DNA from: Thermodesulfobacteriota bacterium
GTDB taxonomy: Bacteria > Desulfobacterota_D > UBA1144 > Nemesobacterales > CSP1-2
Assembly: GCA_035559815.1 (NCBI GenBank)
Contig: DATMAT010000019.1
Location: forward strand, 62,001-126,000
Direction of reading: 5' to 3'
Length of the DNA stretch: 64,000 nucleotides
Part shown: positions 4,057 through 45,332 of the stretch, piece by piece
How the letters are laid out: each line of letters opens with the position of its first letter
Position numbering within the stretch: position 1 is the stretch's first letter
Translations under genes and position numbers: made by a program
Notes under the pieces: model-generated
Seen by the model: the letters and a program-made list of their open reading frames with translations, nothing else
What the model was told of the DNA's origin: nothing
Databases searched by the model: none

Positions 4057-4407
4057 TTATTTTAGCTGGTATTGACCGGCCTTTTCCTGATAGATGCGGT
4101 TTATCTCATCAAATTTTGATACAAATTTGATTCCCATTTTGGTAGGTATGCCGGGCAAGGTATGAGATACCCAGGATATAATGCCTTCTATCAACACAAC
4201 CTCTTCCATCCTGCCGTCGTCGATTGTATTGCCGCCAATATGTATGTGAATCATGATTCTAGACTTGACCGGAAATGCCCTGTGGGATTCGATGGCCATC
4301 CCATTCTTGGAGATGTTTAAGGCATAGCCCGAGGAATTGGGATTTGACAAGCCATACCTAACTCTCTTCCTAAAGGGAACTCTGATCGAAAGCCTGCGAT
4401 TTGCCAT
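4057..4407 (-). CDS. PilZ-domain protein
   Basis: A 116-residue single PilZ domain. The c-di-GMP-binding arginine motif is RVPFRKRVRYG at about residues 9-19 and the second motif is NISKNG near 33-38, matching RxxxR and (D/N)xSxxG. It should bind c-di-GMP and act through partner proteins. It is a clear paralogue of the PilZ protein at 29111-29458 (same RVPFRKRVRYG core, similar end). It lies just upstream of obgE on the same strand. Targets are unknown; the riboswitch-controlled pil region is nearby. Confidence 0.85.
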   Translation of the reverse strand: MANRRLSIRVPFRKRVRYGLSNPNSSGYALNISKNGMAIESHRAFPVKSRIMIHIHIGGNTIDDGRMEEVVLIEGIISWVSHTLPGIPTKMGIKFVSKFDEINRIYQEKAGQYQLK

Positions 4408-4676
4408 TAGACTTATCTCTTTTTATTCTTAATGAGCCTTGCACATTCTATTATAGGTTATTTATAAAGTAGATTTAAGCGGATATAAATTAGACTTCGG
4501 TATGATTTTTGGATAAAAATTAAAGGAATAGTGGGAATTTCTATAACTTTAGTTTGTATCCTCTTCGTTATTAGCACTGTAAGTAACCGTTTGATAGTGT
4601 GTATTACTTGACTTGGAAACGAATAGTTTTGAAAACCATTTGATTTACCTCATATTTGCCGAAGGAGCATACTTAT
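4408..4676. other. Divergent intergenic region, no gene seen
   Basis: An AT-rich gap between the divergent PilZ and permease genes. I see no open frame with a ribosome site and no convincing hairpin. It must hold both promoters, but no pair of boxes stands out. AAGGAG at 4661-4666 is the ribosome site of the next gene. Confidence 0.4.
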
Positions 4677-5744
4677 ATGACTAGAAAACAGATTTTCTCC
4701 TGGTTTTTCTTCGGGATATTCCTTTTTTTAATCTATCTTTTCTACGAGATTCTTAGCCCATTTGCTTTCTCACTTTTCTGGGCGGGGATACTGACCCTGA
4801 TGCTTTATCCTCTTCACGAACGCCTGAATAGGCTACTGAAGAATAGGCCGACGATTTCTTCCATCATCATGACCACCGGAGCTACCTTGGTAATCATAAT
4901 CCCGCTGGGTATCGTTTTTGCGACCCTGGCAGTCGAGGTCTTTGATATTTACCAGGGATTTAAGGATAAGATTGAGTTGATCAAGCTTGGGGCTGTAGCG
5001 GAGAGATTAAAGGAGCTTATTCCCGTAACCATAGTTGAAGAAGTAGAAAAAAGGTTTGATGTGGGAGACTTGGGCATCGAACAGGTTGTATTAAAGGCTG
5101 CGGGAACAGTTAGTAAATATGTTTTTGACCAGGTTCAAGAGGGGGCTAAGAACCTTACCAGCTTGATCATAAGCTTTATAATAATGGTTTTTGCCCTGTT
5201 CTTTTTCTTTCGTGACGGAAGAAGGCTTTACGAAGAGATAAAATATCTAATACCTATGACTGATGAGCAAAAGGAGAGAATATTCGACCGCTTCTACGAT
5301 ATACTGAATGCCGTAATTCTGGGAGTGCTGGCCACCGCCGCCGTACAGGGTATAATAACCGGCCTCATTTTCTGGTTTCTTGGCATCCCATACGCGGTAC
5401 TTGCCGGGGTTCTCACATTCGCATTTTCCATCCTGCCCATTGGAGGTTCGGTATTGGTCTGGCTACCGGTTGGACTGTATCTCCTTTTCGCCGGGGAAGT
5501 TATTAAGGGGATAATTCTTCTTGTCCTTGGAGCCGCTGTAGTAAGCTCTATAGATAATATTCTAAAACCATGGATCATAGGGGGTAGGCTGAAGCTATCG
5601 ACCCTTTTTCTTTTCCTGAGCATTCTGGGCAGTATCAAGGCTTTCGGATTTACCGGCATAATCCTTGGGCCGGTTCTTCTGGTTATCTTTATGAGCTTCC
5701 TAGAAATTTATAAAGCAGAGTACCGGGAACAAAAGTTAGAGTGA
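4677..5744 (+). CDS. AI-2E family transporter (permease)
   Basis: A 355-residue polytopic membrane protein of the AI-2E exporter/YdiK-PerM family. There are hydrophobic helices at both ends and a soluble middle part. The family hallmark is the C-terminal hydrophobic stretch with AVLAGVLTFAFSILPIGG and GFTGIILGPVLL. Members export small molecules or act as Na/H antiporters; the substrate is not predictable. The ATG at 4677 is preferred over an upstream TTG at 4656 because AAGGAG sits 11 bases before it. Confidence 0.88.
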   Translation: MTRKQIFSWFFFGIFLFLIYLFYEILSPFAFSLFWAGILTLMLYPLHERLNRLLKNRPTISSIIMTTGATLVIIIPLGIVFATLAVEVFDIYQGFKDKIELIKLGAVAERLKELIPVTIVEEVEKRFDVGDLGIEQVVLKAAGTVSKYVFDQVQEGAKNLTSLIISFIIMVFALFFFFRDGRRLYEEIKYLIPMTDEQKERIFDRFYDILNAVILGVLATAAVQGIITGLIFWFLGIPYAVLAGVLTFAFSILPIGGSVLVWLPVGLYLLFAGEVIKGIILLVLGAAVVSSIDNILKPWIIGGRLKLSTLFLFLSILGSIKAFGFTGIILGPVLLVIFMSFLEIYKAEYREQKLE

Positions 5745-5812: not shown

Positions 5813-6679
5813 TCAAATAGGTTTTTTTGAGGTTTGCTTTTTGCTCAGCGCACGAAGTATGACGCTCAATAATGCCAAGCCCTTGAATCCATCTTCGTCG
5901 CCTTTTAAAGACTGTATGTAGTCGATGTTTTCCTTTATTGATTCGTCTTCCGGAGCTACTTCTTGAGCTATCCTTAGTACCTCCAGTGCTTCGTCGTACC
6001 AACCTTTTTCAACCATGGAGAAGGCTAGGGAGTTATAGGCGGCAACGAAGTCCGGGCATAAGGTTATGATCTCTTTGTATTTGCTCATAGACTCATCAAT
6101 CCACCCCAAATCTAGATAACAATTTCCGATGGAGAGTTGGGCCCACATGTCACCGGGGAAAAGATCAACGTGCTTCTTTAGCTCTTTGAGTGCTTCACTT
6201 GTCCATCCCATGTCGAAATAGCACAGTCCCAGTTGATAATGTATTTCCTCTTTTATATAATCCTGGTCCGAATCCAACAGAGTACAACTTATGAATTCGG
6301 ATATTGCGTCCTCGTAGCATCCTATAGCTCGGTAGGTAAGGGCTAGGTTCCATTTTGCCATGGCGTAATTGGGCTCGATTGTCAGTGCTCTTTCAAAAGC
6401 ATCGAAAGCATCTTTGTGCTGTCCCAATCTAGCAAAGGTTATACCACATTGAGTCCAGATATAAGGGTCCCCTGGGTCGAGTTCGAGAGCCTTGCCGAAA
6501 TAAAAGATGGATGTTTCCAGCTTCCCCATGGCGTCGTAAGTAAGGGCGAATGATAAATAAACATCCGGGTCGTGTGGAGCGATCTTTAAAGCCTTGGTCA
6601 ACTCCCCGAGTGCTTCGTAAAACCTTCCCGTTTCTTTGAAGTTGTCTGCCTTATTAAGAATTCTCTCTAGTCTTCCCAT
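5813..6679 (-). CDS. Tetratricopeptide repeat protein
   Basis: About 288 residues made of some seven TPR units, each with the W/L-G-Y-A-F-P pattern (for example ALGELTKALKIAPHDPDVYL, then FGKALELDPGDPYIW). Such proteins are scaffolds. There is no signal peptide or membrane segment, so it is probably cytoplasmic. GGAG five bases before the ATG at 6679 decides the start over an upstream in-frame TTG at 6700. It is divergent from the riboswitch/pil region, but nothing proves a pilus role. Confidence 0.85.
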   Translation of the reverse strand: MGRLERILNKADNFKETGRFYEALGELTKALKIAPHDPDVYLSFALTYDAMGKLETSIFYFGKALELDPGDPYIWTQCGITFARLGQHKDAFDAFERALTIEPNYAMAKWNLALTYRAIGCYEDAISEFISCTLLDSDQDYIKEEIHYQLGLCYFDMGWTSEALKELKKHVDLFPGDMWAQLSIGNCYLDLGWIDESMSKYKEIITLCPDFVAAYNSLAFSMVEKGWYDEALEVLRIAQEVAPEDESIKENIDYIQSLKGDEDGFKGLALLSVILRALSKKQTSKKPI

Positions 6680-31096: not shown

Positions 31097-31475
31097 TTTG
31101 ATTACCTCCCCCCTTTTTTAGCCTCGTTTGCAGATCGACGGTTAAGTACGAATTTCGTGCTTTTACAGGGTCAAAAAATACGCTAAATCACTGGTTAATT
31201 TTTTCCCTGCATGTGACCCAAACAAACCTCAGTAATATCACACCCACCTAAAGAATATTCTGCACCAAAGGAATCTAACGTCAATTGACCGGGTTGATGG
31301 AAGCCGGGGGGCCAAGCTTAGAATCATGCGCTTTTTATCGAAAAGCTAAGGTGACTTTGGTATTACCTGCCCGAATCCCGGCTATTTCCAAAAATGGCCA
31401 CGTCCACATCGGGTTTGAGCAATTGGTTAATGTTATAATTTTACTATAAACTCTTATCACGGGAGACCAATTAAT

Positions 31476-31826
31476 ATGCGATATATATACGCGATGTTGT
31501 TAATGGCTATCTTTTCGTTGAGTCTGATATCGACATGGGCAATTGCTCAGGAGGCAAACGCCCCCAACAACGGCTGGAATTATACCGGGCAGATCGTCGT
31601 GATTAACGCCACGGGCTCGATGGTGAATTACTGCGGTATTACTATGGATGAGTACAAAGTCCAAGTTATCAATCCGGAGGGGGGCTTTGGTTTTACCACC
31701 ATGGCTTTTCCCCGGGGTTCGAATCTTAACGCCGGCCTGCAATTCCGGGTCCTTTCCCAAGCTGAGTGTCAAATCGACCCAAGCCGTCTTGTTTTAGAGG
31801 TTGAGCTTATTGAGGATTCGGATTAG
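31476..31826 (+). CDS. Secreted hypothetical protein
   Basis: 116 residues with a clear signal peptide (1-24, cleavage after AIA). The mature part is beta-rich with two Cys (YCG and ECQ) that could form a disulfide. CGGGAGA precedes the ATG. The family is not recognised. Confidence 0.6.
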   Translation: MRYIYAMLLMAIFSLSLISTWAIAQEANAPNNGWNYTGQIVVINATGSMVNYCGITMDEYKVQVINPEGGFGFTTMAFPRGSNLNAGLQFRVLSQAECQIDPSRLVLEVELIEDSD

Positions 31827-32484
31827 CTCGAGCGGATTCGTGTGGAATGTTTTTGTGATTGACCCTTAGAAGAGACCGGACATTTATAAAGCACTGGATA
31901 TCAATAGATAAAACTCTTCCATAACTAATGGCATAGTTCTATGCCTTTCCGTATTTCAATCATCAATTATAACTAAGGTTGGTCATGTCAATTCCGTGGT
32001 TTATACATAAACAAATTTGTCATTGCTGACTATTCCTACTGTCATTTCGAAGGGAGAGATCTTATTGATGAGAGTTTTAAGATTCCTCGCATCCGCTCGG
32101 AATGACATCTTATGTCAGATTCCTCACAAGCTCACTCACATATGTTCGGGACAGGGTCCAGAATGAACGGGCATTTTTATTTCTCTTTACCAGCGGATGT
32201 AAATCCGCTCATACCGAGCCTGGTCGAAGTATGAATTAAGGACGAACGGGATTATCGACAAGCTTACCACTCAGAATGAAGGGGGGACTATTGACTTGGT
32301 CATGGTATTTCAGAATGACACCTTTTATCTGATTGCCTTTTGGAGACTTCGGGTAACGATCTGGAAGGGTTTTATCCAATAGTTTCAGGGTCATAAACCG
32401 AGCCGGGTTGTGCAGTGACCTCAGGATGTTCAACTGCGTATAAAAGTAATGTTCAGGGGGAATTAAAGAAAAAATCAGCGAAAG
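31827..32484. repeat. Repeat-rich intergenic region
   Basis: No gene is supported. Bases 32040-32110 carry 'gtcatttcgaagggagagatctta..gattcctcgcatccgctcggaatgac', an inverted dispersed element. Bases 32192-32232 (CAGCGGATGTAAATCCGCTC) are the reverse-oriented relative of the block at 19209. Confidence 0.5.
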
Positions 32485-32514
32485 TGTCCTCGAAGCGCTT
32501 GTCCATTCGTCGTA
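32485..32514 (+). promoter_or_regulatory. ECF sigma promoter P1 (TGTCCT-17-CGTCGTA)
   Basis: TGTCCT at 32485-32490, exactly 17 nt, then CGTCGTA at 32508-32514. It is one of four matching promoters in 32-44 kb. It drives a 25-residue peptide gene and the ECF sigma gene behind it. Confidence 0.75.
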
Positions 32515-32546
32515 GTAGTGAGACAAAAAATCGTAAGGAGGTAATT

Positions 32547-32624
32547 ATGAGTACAAAGACAACTGTGATGGGGCATAAAATCGTGTCGATAAATGGGTCA
32601 GGAGTCGGCCCGGGTAAGGCTTAG
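32547..32624 (+). CDS. 25-aa peptide upstream of ECF sigma gene
   Basis: MSTKTTVMGHKIVSINGSGV begins a 25-residue peptide. TAAGGAGG six bases before the ATG is a near-perfect ribosome site, stronger than that of the following sigma gene. It is 33 bases from the -10 box of P1, so it is the first translated unit of the mRNA. It ends 19 bases before the sigma ATG. It may be a leader or coupling peptide; sequence alone does not say. Confidence 0.5.
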   Translation: MSTKTTVMGHKIVSINGSGVGPGKA

Positions 32625-32643
32625 CGTTAGGAGTGGATCAACC

Positions 32644-33462
32644 ATGAAATCCCTGGATGTCGCCCAGTTGTCCCGAATGGCCAACGACACCAAAAGCGTT
32701 TTTGAATCCGGCGGTTGTGGCGTCCCGGGTAGTCATGTTTGTGGCTCTGCCACAAGTTCCAGTCTTGGAAGGAATATAGTGAAAAGAGACTCAAGTAACC
32801 TCAGAATATTGAATCATAAAGGTTTGTCTGATGAGGCGCTGGTCAGGAGCTTCGTGGAAACCCAGGATGAAGGGGCTTTTAGTGAGATTGTAGACCGGCA
32901 TGGAGATAGAATCTACAGGCTTGCTCTAAGGATTACCGGCGACCCCGGTGATGCCGAAGATATCATGCAAGAGGTGCTTATCATCCTTTTACAGAAGCTC
33001 GATACATTTCAGGGAGAGGCTAAATTTTCGACCTGGCTTTACCGGGTAGCATTAAATGCCATTTTCATTCACTTAAGGGCCGAGGCGAAATACAAAAATA
33101 ACCTCGGTCTTGAGGATTACGCTCCCTATGGCCAAGACGGGGTGCTTGAGGGTGTTGAAGTAAAGGACTGGAGTGGAAGGCCTGATGAAATACTTCTTAA
33201 TAAAGAAGCCATGGAAATAATAGAAAGTGCGGTCAATGAGCTTCCAGAACCGTATAGAGTAGTTTTTCATTTAAGGGATGTGGAAGGACTTACAAATCAG
33301 GAAGTAGCAAAAATACTGGGGCTTTCTCTCTCCAACGTTAAGTCCAGGATTCACAGGGCAAGGCTTTTTCTGAGAGATAGGCTTTCAGATTACTTTTCTG
33401 CCAATGGAAAAAATAATTTGTATCCCTCTTCCATAAATTTACATCTATTAGTAGGTAGATAG
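32644..33462 (+). CDS. ECF (sigma-70 family) RNA polymerase sigma factor
   Basis: 272 residues. Region 2 spans DRHGDRIYRLALRITGDPGDAEDIMQEV to TWLYRVALNAI (about 95-160). Region 4 spans LPEPYRVVFHLRDVEGLTNQEVAKILGLSLSNVKSRIHRAR (about 205-248). About 60 extra N-terminal residues include a Cys pair (GCGVPGSHVCG). AGGAG lies ten bases before the ATG at 32644; the frame is open further up without a better start. No zinc-finger anti-sigma gene follows. The P1 promoter upstream matches those of three other operons. Confidence 0.9.
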   Translation: MKSLDVAQLSRMANDTKSVFESGGCGVPGSHVCGSATSSSLGRNIVKRDSSNLRILNHKGLSDEALVRSFVETQDEGAFSEIVDRHGDRIYRLALRITGDPGDAEDIMQEVLIILLQKLDTFQGEAKFSTWLYRVALNAIFIHLRAEAKYKNNLGLEDYAPYGQDGVLEGVEVKDWSGRPDEILLNKEAMEIIESAVNELPEPYRVVFHLRDVEGLTNQEVAKILGLSLSNVKSRIHRARLFLRDRLSDYFSANGKNNLYPSSINLHLLVGR

Positions 33463-33491: not shown

Positions 33492-34127
33492 ATGAGGACA
33501 CAGATGATGAAATTAATAAAGAGGGGAATTTTCCTGTTTCTATTATTACTTAGTTTTCTTTTCTTGATGTTTTCCTCCCAACCGGGGTTGAGTGAGGAAT
33601 TAAATGAAAACTCAAACAAGGGCGGGCTATTTATAGTCGTTCTCCACCCAAAGGTGGTGACAATGGAAAACGGTAATGGTACAGAGACTGTGATTACAAT
33701 AGTCAATTTAGGAAATAAACCTATCTCTTTGGGAAGGGTAGACCCTAAAACCGGTAGAATTGTAGGCGGAGACTACGAATTAAGAGTGTCGGTAGATATA
33801 AGTAACGCACCGTTAAGACATATGGAGATTGGAGGCCTGGTAACGGTAAGTAATGATGCCCCGTTTACCAGCGCTAATCTGATAAGCGGCGTAACCTTCA
33901 TGCCCGGGGCCGGGCTTTGGATGGCAGTAACCGTCTTACCTGGGGAAAGTATAGAAATACCCGAAGAGGGAGACGCAAAGTTCACATTCACACTTTTAGG
34001 CTCGGTTGGAGGCAAAATCAGGCCCCTGATCGAAATGGGGTTTTCGATGCGCTATGAAAAAGGGAAGCAATCCGACGATTCCAGATTTATACAGGCGAGT
34101 GCTAAGCTCGATAATCCAAACATTTAA
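33492..34127 (+). CDS. Secreted hypothetical protein
   Basis: 211 residues with a signal peptide ending near SQPGLSEE (about 30). The body is beta-rich, with a repeat-like alternation of Gly-rich turns (NLGNKPISLGRV, IGGLVTVSNDAP). It follows the ECF sigma gene by 29 bases and may be co-transcribed as its target. The start could also be an ATG at 33504, which has GAGG before it. The family is not recognised. Confidence 0.6.
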   Translation: MRTQMMKLIKRGIFLFLLLLSFLFLMFSSQPGLSEELNENSNKGGLFIVVLHPKVVTMENGNGTETVITIVNLGNKPISLGRVDPKTGRIVGGDYELRVSVDISNAPLRHMEIGGLVTVSNDAPFTSANLISGVTFMPGAGLWMAVTVLPGESIEIPEEGDAKFTFTLLGSVGGKIRPLIEMGFSMRYEKGKQSDDSRFIQASAKLDNPNI

Positions 34128-34868: not shown

Positions 34869-35519
34869 ATGAATCCCAAAAACTTATCCAAGTTGTTTTT
34901 ATTCTTGGTAGTTTGTACCGTCTTCGCTCTTGCTGCAACGGTCGTAACGAGCAAAGCCGGAGAGGAGTCCAAAGAAAAACAGGAATCAGTCAAGCAAAAG
35001 ACATCTCAGCACGACCACGATGCAATGATGGAGAAATGGAAGGAGTACGCAACACCTAATGAAAATCATAAGGTGTTAGGTGCGCTCGTCGGGGACTGGG
35101 ACTACACGGTAAAGTGGTGGATGACTCCCGACGGCGAACCGGAAGTATCCACGGGTACGAGCGAGGTCGAGTGGATAATGGGGGGACGCTTCATTCAATA
35201 CGAGGTAGAGGGAACGTCCATGGGACAGCCGTTTGAGGGCTTGGGGATAACCGGATACGACAACGAGAAAAAACAATATCGGTCGGTATGGATTGACAAT
35301 ATGGGAACAGGGATAATGACAGCGAGCGGAAGCTATGACCCTAACACCAAGACAATCACCGACCAGGGAACCTTTAGTTGCCCGGCAGAGGGAGAGAAAG
35401 CCTTTCGCGCTGTGACTAAAATCGTAGATAATAATAATTTTACCTATGAGTGGTATATGAACGGCCCGGATGGAAAGGAATTTCGCGCCATGGAAATCGT
35501 TTACACGAGAAAGAAGTAA
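34869..35519 (+). CDS. Exported DUF1579 protein
   Basis: 216 residues. A signal peptide (about 1-31, ending TSKAG) is followed by a linker and a lipocalin-like DUF1579 domain: LGALVGDWDYTVKWWMTP, SEVEWIMGGRFIQYEVEGTSMGQPFEGLG and GYDNEKKQYRSVWIDNMGTG. AAGGAGGAGA precedes the ATG. DUF1579 genes commonly sit beside ECF41/42-type and DGPF genes, and here it has its own P2 promoter. The ligand is unknown. Confidence 0.88.
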   Translation: MNPKNLSKLFLFLVVCTVFALAATVVTSKAGEESKEKQESVKQKTSQHDHDAMMEKWKEYATPNENHKVLGALVGDWDYTVKWWMTPDGEPEVSTGTSEVEWIMGGRFIQYEVEGTSMGQPFEGLGITGYDNEKKQYRSVWIDNMGTGIMTASGSYDPNTKTITDQGTFSCPAEGEKAFRAVTKIVDNNNFTYEWYMNGPDGKEFRAMEIVYTRKK

Positions 35520-35809: not shown

Positions 35810-36577
35810 ATGCAAAACCACAAGGTAGTTACCAGAGAAGAGTGGCTTGTGGCTCGCAAGGAGCTGCTCAAGGCAGAGAAGGAGCTCACGCGGCGCAGCG
35901 ACGAGCTGGCGCGCCAGCGGCAGGAGTTGCCGTGGGTTCGGATCGACAAGAAGTATCGATTCGAGACCGACGAGGGGAGCGCCTCGCTGGCGGACCTCTT
36001 CCGAGGACACTCGCAGCTCCTCGTCTACCACTTCATGTTCGGGCCCGACTACGCTGCGGGTTGTCCAGCCTGCTCGGCGATCGCGGATGGCTTCAATGGA
36101 TTCGCGATTCACTTGGCCAACCATGACGTGATGCTTTGGGCGGTGTCGCGCGCGCCGCTGGAGAAGCTACAGGCGTACAAGCGTCGAATGGACTGGACGT
36201 TCCCGTGGGCATCCTCATTCGGCAGCGATTTCAACTTCGATTTCAGTGTCGGTTTTACCGAGGAGCAGCAGCGCAAAGAGGGCATCGAATACAATTATCA
36301 GCGTGAGGAGCCTACCGTCGAGATACCTTCGCGCTCGACACCAGACGGGCCAACGATATTCGCTGCCATGTGTGGAACCGACGTGGGTACCTACACGCGC
36401 GAAAGGCCGGGCATGAGCGCGTTCGTGCTCGAGGACGGTATCGTCTACCACACTTATTCCACATATGCGCGCGGACTGGACGGCCTCTGGGGCATGTACC
36501 AGTGGCTCGACCGTGCCCCCAAGGGGCGCAACGAGACGGGCGTCTGGTGGCGCCGCCACGACGAGTACGAAAAATAA
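35810..36577 (+). CDS. DUF899 thioredoxin-fold protein
   Basis: 255 residues of the DUF899 family: HKVVTREEWLVARKELLKAEK, then ELPWVRIDKKYRFE, LVYHFMFGPDYAAGCPACSAIADGFNG and WASSFGSDFNFDFSV. The CPAC pair (about residue 85) may be redox-active. Family function is unproven. AAGGAGG precedes the ATG. The coding GC is visibly higher than in flanking spacers and in the DUF1579 gene, suggesting acquisition by transfer. The P3 promoter lies upstream. Confidence 0.9.
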   Translation: MQNHKVVTREEWLVARKELLKAEKELTRRSDELARQRQELPWVRIDKKYRFETDEGSASLADLFRGHSQLLVYHFMFGPDYAAGCPACSAIADGFNGFAIHLANHDVMLWAVSRAPLEKLQAYKRRMDWTFPWASSFGSDFNFDFSVGFTEEQQRKEGIEYNYQREEPTVEIPSRSTPDGPTIFAAMCGTDVGTYTRERPGMSAFVLEDGIVYHTYSTYARGLDGLWGMYQWLDRAPKGRNETGVWWRRHDEYEK

Positions 36578-43565: not shown

Positions 43566-43985
43566 ATGAGTACACAAACAAGACCGGAATACATGCTGTT
43601 ATTCCGAGGCACCGATTGGCACAAGGGCCTATCGCCGGAGGAGATCCAGCAGGTGATCACCCAGATGTATGCCTGGTTCGACAGGTTGACCGAGCAGGGC
43701 ATACTCAAGGCGGGGCAGCCACTCGAGAACGAGGGCAAGATTGTCTCGCAGAAAAAGGGCAGCAGCGTGGCGGACGGCCCGTTTGCCGAGTCCAAAGAGG
43801 CTATAGCCGGCTACTTTTTGCTTTACGTAGATAGCCTGGAAGAAGCAGTGGAGATCGCCAAGAATTACCCGGCACTGAACTACGGTGCCACCGTGGAAGT
43901 AAGGCCGGTTGCACCTGAGTGTTCGATGAAGCAGGTACTCGGGCAAAAGGTTGCGGAAGAGGAACTGGCACAGGCCAGTGCGTAA
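43566..43985 (+). CDS. YCII-related DGPF-domain protein
   Basis: 139 residues: EYMLLFRGTDWHKGLSPEEIQQVITQMYAWFDRL, then SVADGPFAESKEAIAGYFLLYVDSLEEAVEIAKNYP and VEVRPV. The DGPF motif (about 75-78) defines the family, whose genes are the standard partners of ECF42 sigma factors. GGAGGGCGATA precedes the ATG. The sigma gene follows within 30 bases under the same P4 promoter. The function in stress or antibiotic tolerance is family knowledge; the reaction is unknown. Confidence 0.92.
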   Translation: MSTQTRPEYMLLFRGTDWHKGLSPEEIQQVITQMYAWFDRLTEQGILKAGQPLENEGKIVSQKKGSSVADGPFAESKEAIAGYFLLYVDSLEEAVEIAKNYPALNYGATVEVRPVAPECSMKQVLGQKVAEEELAQASA

Positions 43986-44012: not shown

Positions 44013-45332
44013 ATGTCTGGCTCCGAACCCACCGGTGGAGCGCAGCCACAGGGTGATATTACCCGTGTGGTGGAGCACCTTTTCCGTCATGAGGCGGGGA
44101 AGATGGTTTCTACCCTGACCAGGTTTTTTGGTGTCGAGCACCTTAAACTAGCTGAAGACGTAGTTCAGGAAGCGCTGGTCAAGGCGCTTCAGACCTGGCC
44201 TTATTACGGTATTCCCCGGAATCCGGCAGCATGGATCACCCAGGTGTCGAAAAATCTGGCGCTCGACGTCATCCGGCGGGAAAAGGTTTTCCGCAACAAA
44301 GAGACTGCTATTGTCCGTTTCATGGAGCAGGGCTTGGCGTCCTCCACAGCCGAGGATTCTGCGCTTTTCGGGGAGCAAATCAGCGACGACAGTTTGTGGA
44401 TGATGTTCATGTGCTGCCATCCTATGCTCCCCCAAGAGGCCCAGGTAGCGCTGGCGCTGAAGACACTTTGCGGGTTCAGCGTCGAGGAAATTGCCAGGGC
44501 GTTCCTCACCTCTGAAGCGGCAATCGCCAAGAGGCTCACACGGGCCAAACAAAAAATCCGCGAGGCGAAAATTCCCTTCGAGTTACCAGCGGGAGAAGAG
44601 CTTACTGAGCGTATGGACGGAGTGCTTCAAACGCTCTACCTCCTTTTCAACGAAGGATACAAGGCTTCGGGCGGTAACAACCTGATAAGGAAGGAACTCT
44701 GTCAGGAAGCAATCCGGCTTGGTGAGTTATTGACATCGCATCCTGCGGGCAATCGGCCCCGTTCTCATGCACTACTGGCGCTAATGCTGCTTAATGGGGC
44801 GCGGTTACCGGCACGGGTGGACACGGACGGAAACATACTTCGCCTGAAAGAGCAGGACCGGTCCTGCTGGGACCAGGCCATGATTGCACGCGGGCTCTAT
44901 CACCTGATGCAATCGACAGAGGGCGATGAAGTGAGCGAGTATCACCTTCAAGCGGGCATCGCCGCCTGCCACTGTGCAGCGAAGGATTACGAATCAACGG
45001 ATTGGCCGCGAATCCTTTCCCTTTATGATCTCTTGATTGATATGGATGATTCTCCCGTGGTTGCGCTAAATCGTGCCGTGGCGGTTGCCAACGTTCACGG
45101 CCCAAGAGCGGGTATCGAGGCGGTGGAGGCGATCAAAAACAGGGAGCAGTTGAAATCATACTACTTGCTTTACACAGTCCTTGGCGAGTTCGAGGCGCTT
45201 CTCAACAACCCGAAGGCGGCTATCGGCTATTTCCGGAAATCCCTGGAATTGGCCACCATTAAATCCGAAAAGAGGTTCCTTTCAAAAAGACTCCGGTCAA
45301 TCGAGGCAACAACAATAAGGTCCGAGCTTTGA
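44013..45332 (+). CDS. ECF42-type sigma factor with C-terminal TPR-like extension
   Basis: About 439 residues. Region 2 (RHEAGKMVSTLTRFFGVEHLKLAEDVVQEALVKAL, WITQVSKNLALDVIRRE) and region 4 (LALKTLCGFSVEEIARAFLTSEAAIAKRLTRAKQKIRE) occupy the first 190 residues. The remaining 240 are the helical SnoaL-less extension typical of ECF42, ending LLYTVLGEFEALLNNPKAAIGYFRKSLELA. In this group the extension replaces an anti-sigma factor. GAGGTGA precedes the ATG; a GTG at 44001 is an alternative. A tail copy lies at 46090. Confidence 0.93.
   Translation: MSGSEPTGGAQPQGDITRVVEHLFRHEAGKMVSTLTRFFGVEHLKLAEDVVQEALVKALQTWPYYGIPRNPAAWITQVSKNLALDVIRREKVFRNKETAIVRFMEQGLASSTAEDSALFGEQISDDSLWMMFMCCHPMLPQEAQVALALKTLCGFSVEEIARAFLTSEAAIAKRLTRAKQKIREAKIPFELPAGEELTERMDGVLQTLYLLFNEGYKASGGNNLIRKELCQEAIRLGELLTSHPAGNRPRSHALLALMLLNGARLPARVDTDGNILRLKEQDRSCWDQAMIARGLYHLMQSTEGDEVSEYHLQAGIAACHCAAKDYESTDWPRILSLYDLLIDMDDSPVVALNRAVAVANVHGPRAGIEAVEAIKNREQLKSYYLLYTVLGEFEALLNNPKAAIGYFRKSLELATIKSEKRFLSKRLRSIEATTIRSEL

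Follow-up and report, generated by a model that had tools for sequence, protein, structure and literature searches.

Two ECF sigma factor genes lie in the window, the 64,000-nucleotide stretch of a Dadabacteria genome analysed here, and one of the encoded factors, of the ECF42 type, appears to control the gene of the other, ECF-272, through the promoter P1. We put the probability that ECF42, P1 and ECF-272 constitute a working cascade at roughly 0.6, judging from the sequence. On the favoured reading, the ECF42 factor, from the gene at 44013, has the sites P1–P4 as its regulon: P4 would drive the YCII-ECF42 operon and so provide autoregulation, P2 would drive the DUF1579 gene, P3 would drive the DUF899 gene and perhaps also the enzyme genes behind it, and P1 would place the ECF-272 gene, together with the secreted-protein gene that follows it, under ECF42. 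We infer that P1 is used by RNA polymerase carrying ECF42, that ECF-272 is produced from the resulting transcript, and that ECF-272 acts on separate targets. Transcription from P1 would run on into the ECF-272 gene and then into the gene of a 211-aa protein, and since ECF-272 has no anti-sigma factor, it would be controlled by the amount produced.

Four sites of one bipartite motif

In scans of the window and the whole genome, the four sites all fit TGTCYT-N14-ATTCGTCGTA. P1 (32485..32514, + strand) has its −35 element TGTCCT at 32485-32490 and its −10 element CGTC at 32508-32511, followed by a conserved GTA that ends at 32514; the span from TGTC to CGTC (32485-32511) reads TGTCCTCGAAGCGCTTGTCCATTCGTC. 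P2 (34804..34833), P3 (35729..35758) and P4 (43498..43527), all on the + strand, match the same motif, and the corresponding span of P4 (43498-43524) reads TGTCCTGAAATCTCCCCTTCATTCGTC. The description of P1 and P4 in the earlier note as almost the same is borne out, as the two are identical at 16 of 16 core positions, partly an effect of the way the site was found, and at 6 of 14 spacer positions, and the likeness continues into the leader. When up to three mismatches are allowed, the window scan returns P1–P4 only, four matches against 0.06 expected, and at two mismatches or fewer these are the only sites in the whole 3.97 Mb genome, all of them in the 12 kb that precede the ECF42 gene. A position matrix built from 13 other sites, with P1 left out, scores P1 at 31.8 bits (25.8–39.6 for the other 13 sites, leave-one-out), while the best non-member in the window reaches 18.95 bits with the P1-free matrix and sits inside a gene. 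A candidate fifth site at 5969 was rejected because it falls inside a TPR gene.

P2 lies in front of the DUF1579 gene (34869..35519, + strand; PF07617, E 2e-46) and P3 in front of the DUF899 gene (35810..36577, + strand; PF05988), which is followed, up to 43371, by VOC, DUF1801, BNR, DoxX, DUF1428, cupin-like, GFA and DUF72 genes. P4 precedes the operon formed by a YCII (DGPF) gene (43566..43985, + strand; PF03795), the usual partner of ECF42, and the ECF42 gene itself (44013..45332, + strand; GTG 44001 is a possible alternative start).

The ECF42 factor and the motif in other genomes

The product of the gene at 44013 has the sigma2–sigma4–DUF6596 architecture (PF04542, PF08281 and PF20239, the last with E 2.5e-37), that is, the two sigma domains and the C-terminal extension of about 200 residues (DUF6596/TPR) that mark ECF42 factors; a Pfam search for TPR in the protein gave no match at E 0.5. 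As is also characteristic of the group, the YCII/DGPF gene stands directly upstream in the same operon, and the TGTC...CGTC target promoters include that of the factor's own operon, P4. The window ECF42 is 68–77% identical to the ECF42s of three of the genomes searched (G008, G023 and G043) and 51% identical to a second ECF42 copy in its own genome, on contig 71 (L067:11054-12364). This second copy has EgtB/EgtD-like genes in its neighbourhood and a YCII gene downstream of it, and no strict TGTC-27-CGTC site was found within 17 kb of it.

Of 61 genomes (Dadabacteria and outgroups), five have exact matches to the correctly spaced motif, namely G000, G008, G013, G023 and G043, and the strongest ECF42 matches are those of G000, G008, G023 and G043. 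As a spacing control, a spacer longer by one base gave zero exact matches in the same 61 genomes. In the Dadabacteria relatives with a close ECF42, the motif stands at the same fixed spacing in front of YCII-ECF42, SRPBCC, SnoaL and VOC genes; in the draft genome G013 the sites precede SRPBCC and VOC genes, and no DUF6596 match was found there. A scan of GTDB returned 11 exact matches, from Verrucomicrobia, Desulfatitalea, a deltaproteobacterial bin and Dadabacteria, the majority of them before YCII, VOC, SRPBCC or SnoaL genes as assigned by eye from the translations, and none of the 11 was seen directly before another sigma gene. The distance from TGTC to CGTC in P1–P4 is 27 nt, equal to that in all three promoters listed for RpoE10, the ECF42 factor of S. 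meliloti (PMC6180224). Because the motif tracks ECF42 in relatives and has the length of the RpoE10 promoters, P1–P4 are very probably promoters of the ECF42 factor and not of ECF-272.

One of the matches outside the Dadabacteria, in the deltaproteobacterial bin DP_36 (L132:1242-1271, minus strand), is identical to P3 at all 30 bases, spacer included, and precedes YCII and DUF899-like genes. This identity suggests either that the promoter was transferred with the gene block or that the contig was mis-binned.

The P1 leader and the genes behind it

P1 stands 132 nt before ATG 32644 of the ECF-272 gene, the upstream position expected of a promoter in an ECF-to-ECF cascade. In the place taken by the target gene at the other sites, P1 is followed by an ORF of 25 codons, MSTKTTVMGHKIVSINGSGVGPGKA (32547..32624, + strand), which has a Shine-Dalgarno sequence AAGGAGG at the usual distance and ends 19 nt before ATG 32644. 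The P1 leader and the first codons of this ORF align with those of P4-YCII at 39 of 47 bases, a likeness reached in 0 of 1000 shuffles. Since the leader is homologous to that of P4 and the ORF stops at 25 codons, P1 is best read as the front end of a truncated ECF42 target gene, and the ORF is probably the remnant of a former ECF42 target that is now a leader. The promoter, leader and first codons would then derive from an ECF42 target of the P4/YCII kind, with the rest of the gene gone; a translated search of 32560-32780 against the window found no remains of a lost gene. The idea that the 25-aa ORF is a conserved leader peptide was discarded, as it drew chance matches only, one of them isocitrate dehydrogenase-like, and no convincing homologue. 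Scans of 31400-33000 found neither a terminator on the + strand nor a sigma-70-like promoter, and P1 is therefore the only recognisable promoter before ECF-272, with the qualification that such scans are weak evidence.

Downstream, 30 nt after the ECF-272 gene, lies the gene of a 211-aa protein with an N-terminal hydrophobic stretch (33492..34127, + strand), which is probably on the same transcript. The protein has no Pfam match and a single partial homologue in 60 relatives, no H-x3-C-x2-C was found in this ORF, and it is not an anti-sigma factor of known type.

ECF-272 and its family

ECF-272 (32644..33462, + strand) consists of sigma2 and sigma4 domains only (Pfam Sigma70_r2 and r4_2) and is of the SigW/RpoE kind, with SigW as its best PDB match (5wuq, E 1.3e-25) and RpoE close to it (1or7, E 4e-23). 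ATG 32644 is preceded by AGGAG; an alternative start, GTG 32779, is preceded by GGAAGGA and gives a protein of 227 aa, a length like that of most paralogues, and may be the true start. The difference in architecture between the two factors that the earlier note described holds, sigma2 and sigma4 in ECF-272 against sigma2, sigma4 and DUF6596 in ECF42, and the two share 21% identity over 149 residues (BLASTP). The aligned −35 recognition helix likewise separates them: it reads KSRIHR in ECF-272, similar to RSRIFR in RpoE and RSRIHR in SigE, and AKRLTR in ECF42. It is this helix that determines the choice of −35 element, as established for RpoE.

Neither sigma gene is adjoined by an anti-sigma gene, as had been pointed out. 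For ECF42 this absence is unremarkable, being the rule there, but for ECF-272 it is informative, because 17 of 45 ECF-272 homologues have a small zinc-finger (H-x3-C-x2-C) anti-sigma gene directly downstream. In a tree of the family, whose root is unsettled, 16 of these anti-sigma-linked homologues fall into one supported clade of 17 rows, and the window ECF-272 pairs with a paralogue on contig 56, both without the anti-sigma gene. The genome holds five paralogues of ECF-272, and the anti-sigma gene is absent at the window copy and at the two paralogues closest to it, those of contigs 56 and 63.

Upstream of the 44 other ECF-272 homologues, none of them a close orthologue, no P1-like site was found (best score 1.0). 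The motif is thus not a trait of the ECF-272 family, and among these homologues the link between such a site and the sigma gene is seen in this genome only. A bipartite motif search for a family promoter upstream of the 45 homologues yielded nothing convincing in the anti-sigma-linked set and a conserved block in one set of homologues without the anti-sigma gene.

Alternative readings of P1

The earlier note had left two options, that one sigma factor controls the gene of the other or that both recognise one promoter. The former is favoured, in the direction from ECF42 to ECF-272, by a motif that tracks ECF42 and matches the RpoE10 promoters (PMC6180224) and by 44 ECF-272 homologues without the site. 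The latter loses ground with the 21% identity of the factors and their differing −35 helices, and we consider it very unlikely, whether both factors read the same P1–P4 sites or read overlapping promoters, TGTC...CGTC for ECF42 and a SigW-like TGAAA-N-CGTAT in P2–P4 for ECF-272. P2–P4 do contain TGAAA[T/G]-N15-CGTATT, which resembles the SigW consensus, and SigW is the nearest match of ECF-272 in PDB; the additional letters are missing from P1, which would fit an ECF-272 that acts at a step after P1. However, the GAAA element also occurs in sites of unrelated genomes and is missing from several Dadabacteria sites, the spacing in P2–P4 is shorter than the 16–17 of SigW promoters, and the ECF42 site is missing upstream of every other ECF-272 homologue. 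Still less can be said for chance, or another kind of repeat, as the source of the likeness of P1 and P4, which is refuted by the window scan, the genome scan and the matrix score: although a dispersed repeat lies near by (32159-32345, with 72–92% identical copies on several other contigs), it ends 140 bp before P1.

A more serious competitor, though one we regard as unlikely, is that P1 is by origin a genuine ECF42 promoter that has lost its own target and remains by chance before ECF-272, with no meaningful cascade. The match of the P1 leader and first codons to P4-YCII, the halt of the ORF after 25 codons and the lack of the site before all 44 other homologues would each be expected of such a relic, as would the spacer of P1, which deviates from those of the other window sites. 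P1 differs from P2–P4 in the spacer and right after GTA (GAAA to CGAAG and GTATTAA to GTAGTAG), departures that fit decay as well as drift. Against a relic stand the intact core, with all 16 positions kept while the spacer has largely diverged from that of P4, a contrast due in part to how the site was found, as well as the preserved Shine-Dalgarno sequence and start codon and the negative result of a terminator scan from P1 to the sigma gene. The favoured cascade from ECF42 to ECF-272 could also be extended to a rewired two-step circuit, in which a stray ECF42 target promoter captured ECF-272, ECF42 controls a second regulon via the amount of ECF-272, and feed-forward through SigW-like elements overlapping P2–P4 is possible; this larger scheme is speculative and in our view rather improbable.

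Relation to known ECF systems

ECF42 factors have been described in S. venezuelae (Sven_0747, Sven_4377 and Sven_7131), P. putida (ECF-10) and S. meliloti (RpoE10) (PMC6180224, PMC8999054). The window factor resembles them in its sigma2–sigma4 domains with a long C-terminal extension, in the YCII/DGPF gene directly upstream, in the absence of an anti-sigma gene, in its 27-nt TGTC...CGTC promoters and in a small local regulon of VOC/YCII/SRPBCC-like genes (PMC6180224, PMC8999054). The −35 element here, TGTCCT, differs from the TGTCGG of S. meliloti, the −10 element is extended (ATTCGTCGTA), and, unlike in the known ECF42 systems, a second ECF sigma gene lies behind one of the four sites. Cascades of ECF sigma factors are known from C. 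crescentus, where SigT acts on SigU (PMC8103513), and from A. brasilense, where RpoE6 acts on RpoE8 (PMC12826043), and as in these the regulon of one ECF factor here would include another sigma gene. SigU, however, is a paralogue of SigT, whereas the two factors in the window are unrelated in group, with an ECF42-type factor as the upper one. The Dadabacteria family of ECF-272 is like other SigW/RpoE-like ECF factors with ZAS anti-sigma factors in having one clade (16 of 17 rows) with a downstream anti-sigma gene, while the window ECF-272 and its nearest paralogues depart from this pattern.

ECF42 regulons have been described before, and so have ECF cascades (PMC8999054, PMC6180224, PMC8103513, PMC12826043); their combination is a modest variation. 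The literature searched, a body that left out the main S. venezuelae and P. putida ECF42 papers, reports no case of an unrelated ECF gene under the control of an ECF42 factor, and no sigma factor study in Dadabacteria was found there. The analysis identifies an ECF42 promoter and regulon in Dadabacteria, the regulon itself being ordinary for ECF42, and offers a clear example of how a sigma gene that lacks an anti-sigma partner may have come under the promoter of another sigma factor. If true, it would illustrate how sigma cascades start.

Paralogues of ECF-272 elsewhere in the genome

The two nearest paralogues, both anti-sigma-free, have neighbours of their own: the copy on contig 63 (L069) lies directly behind a TetR-like gene, and that on contig 56 (L068) directly before a membrane-fusion-like efflux gene. 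Given these neighbours, the two copies may be under separate transcriptional control. A further paralogue, on contig 1 (L071, about 4080-4953), appears to be split over two reading frames, by a frameshift in the gene or an assembly error.
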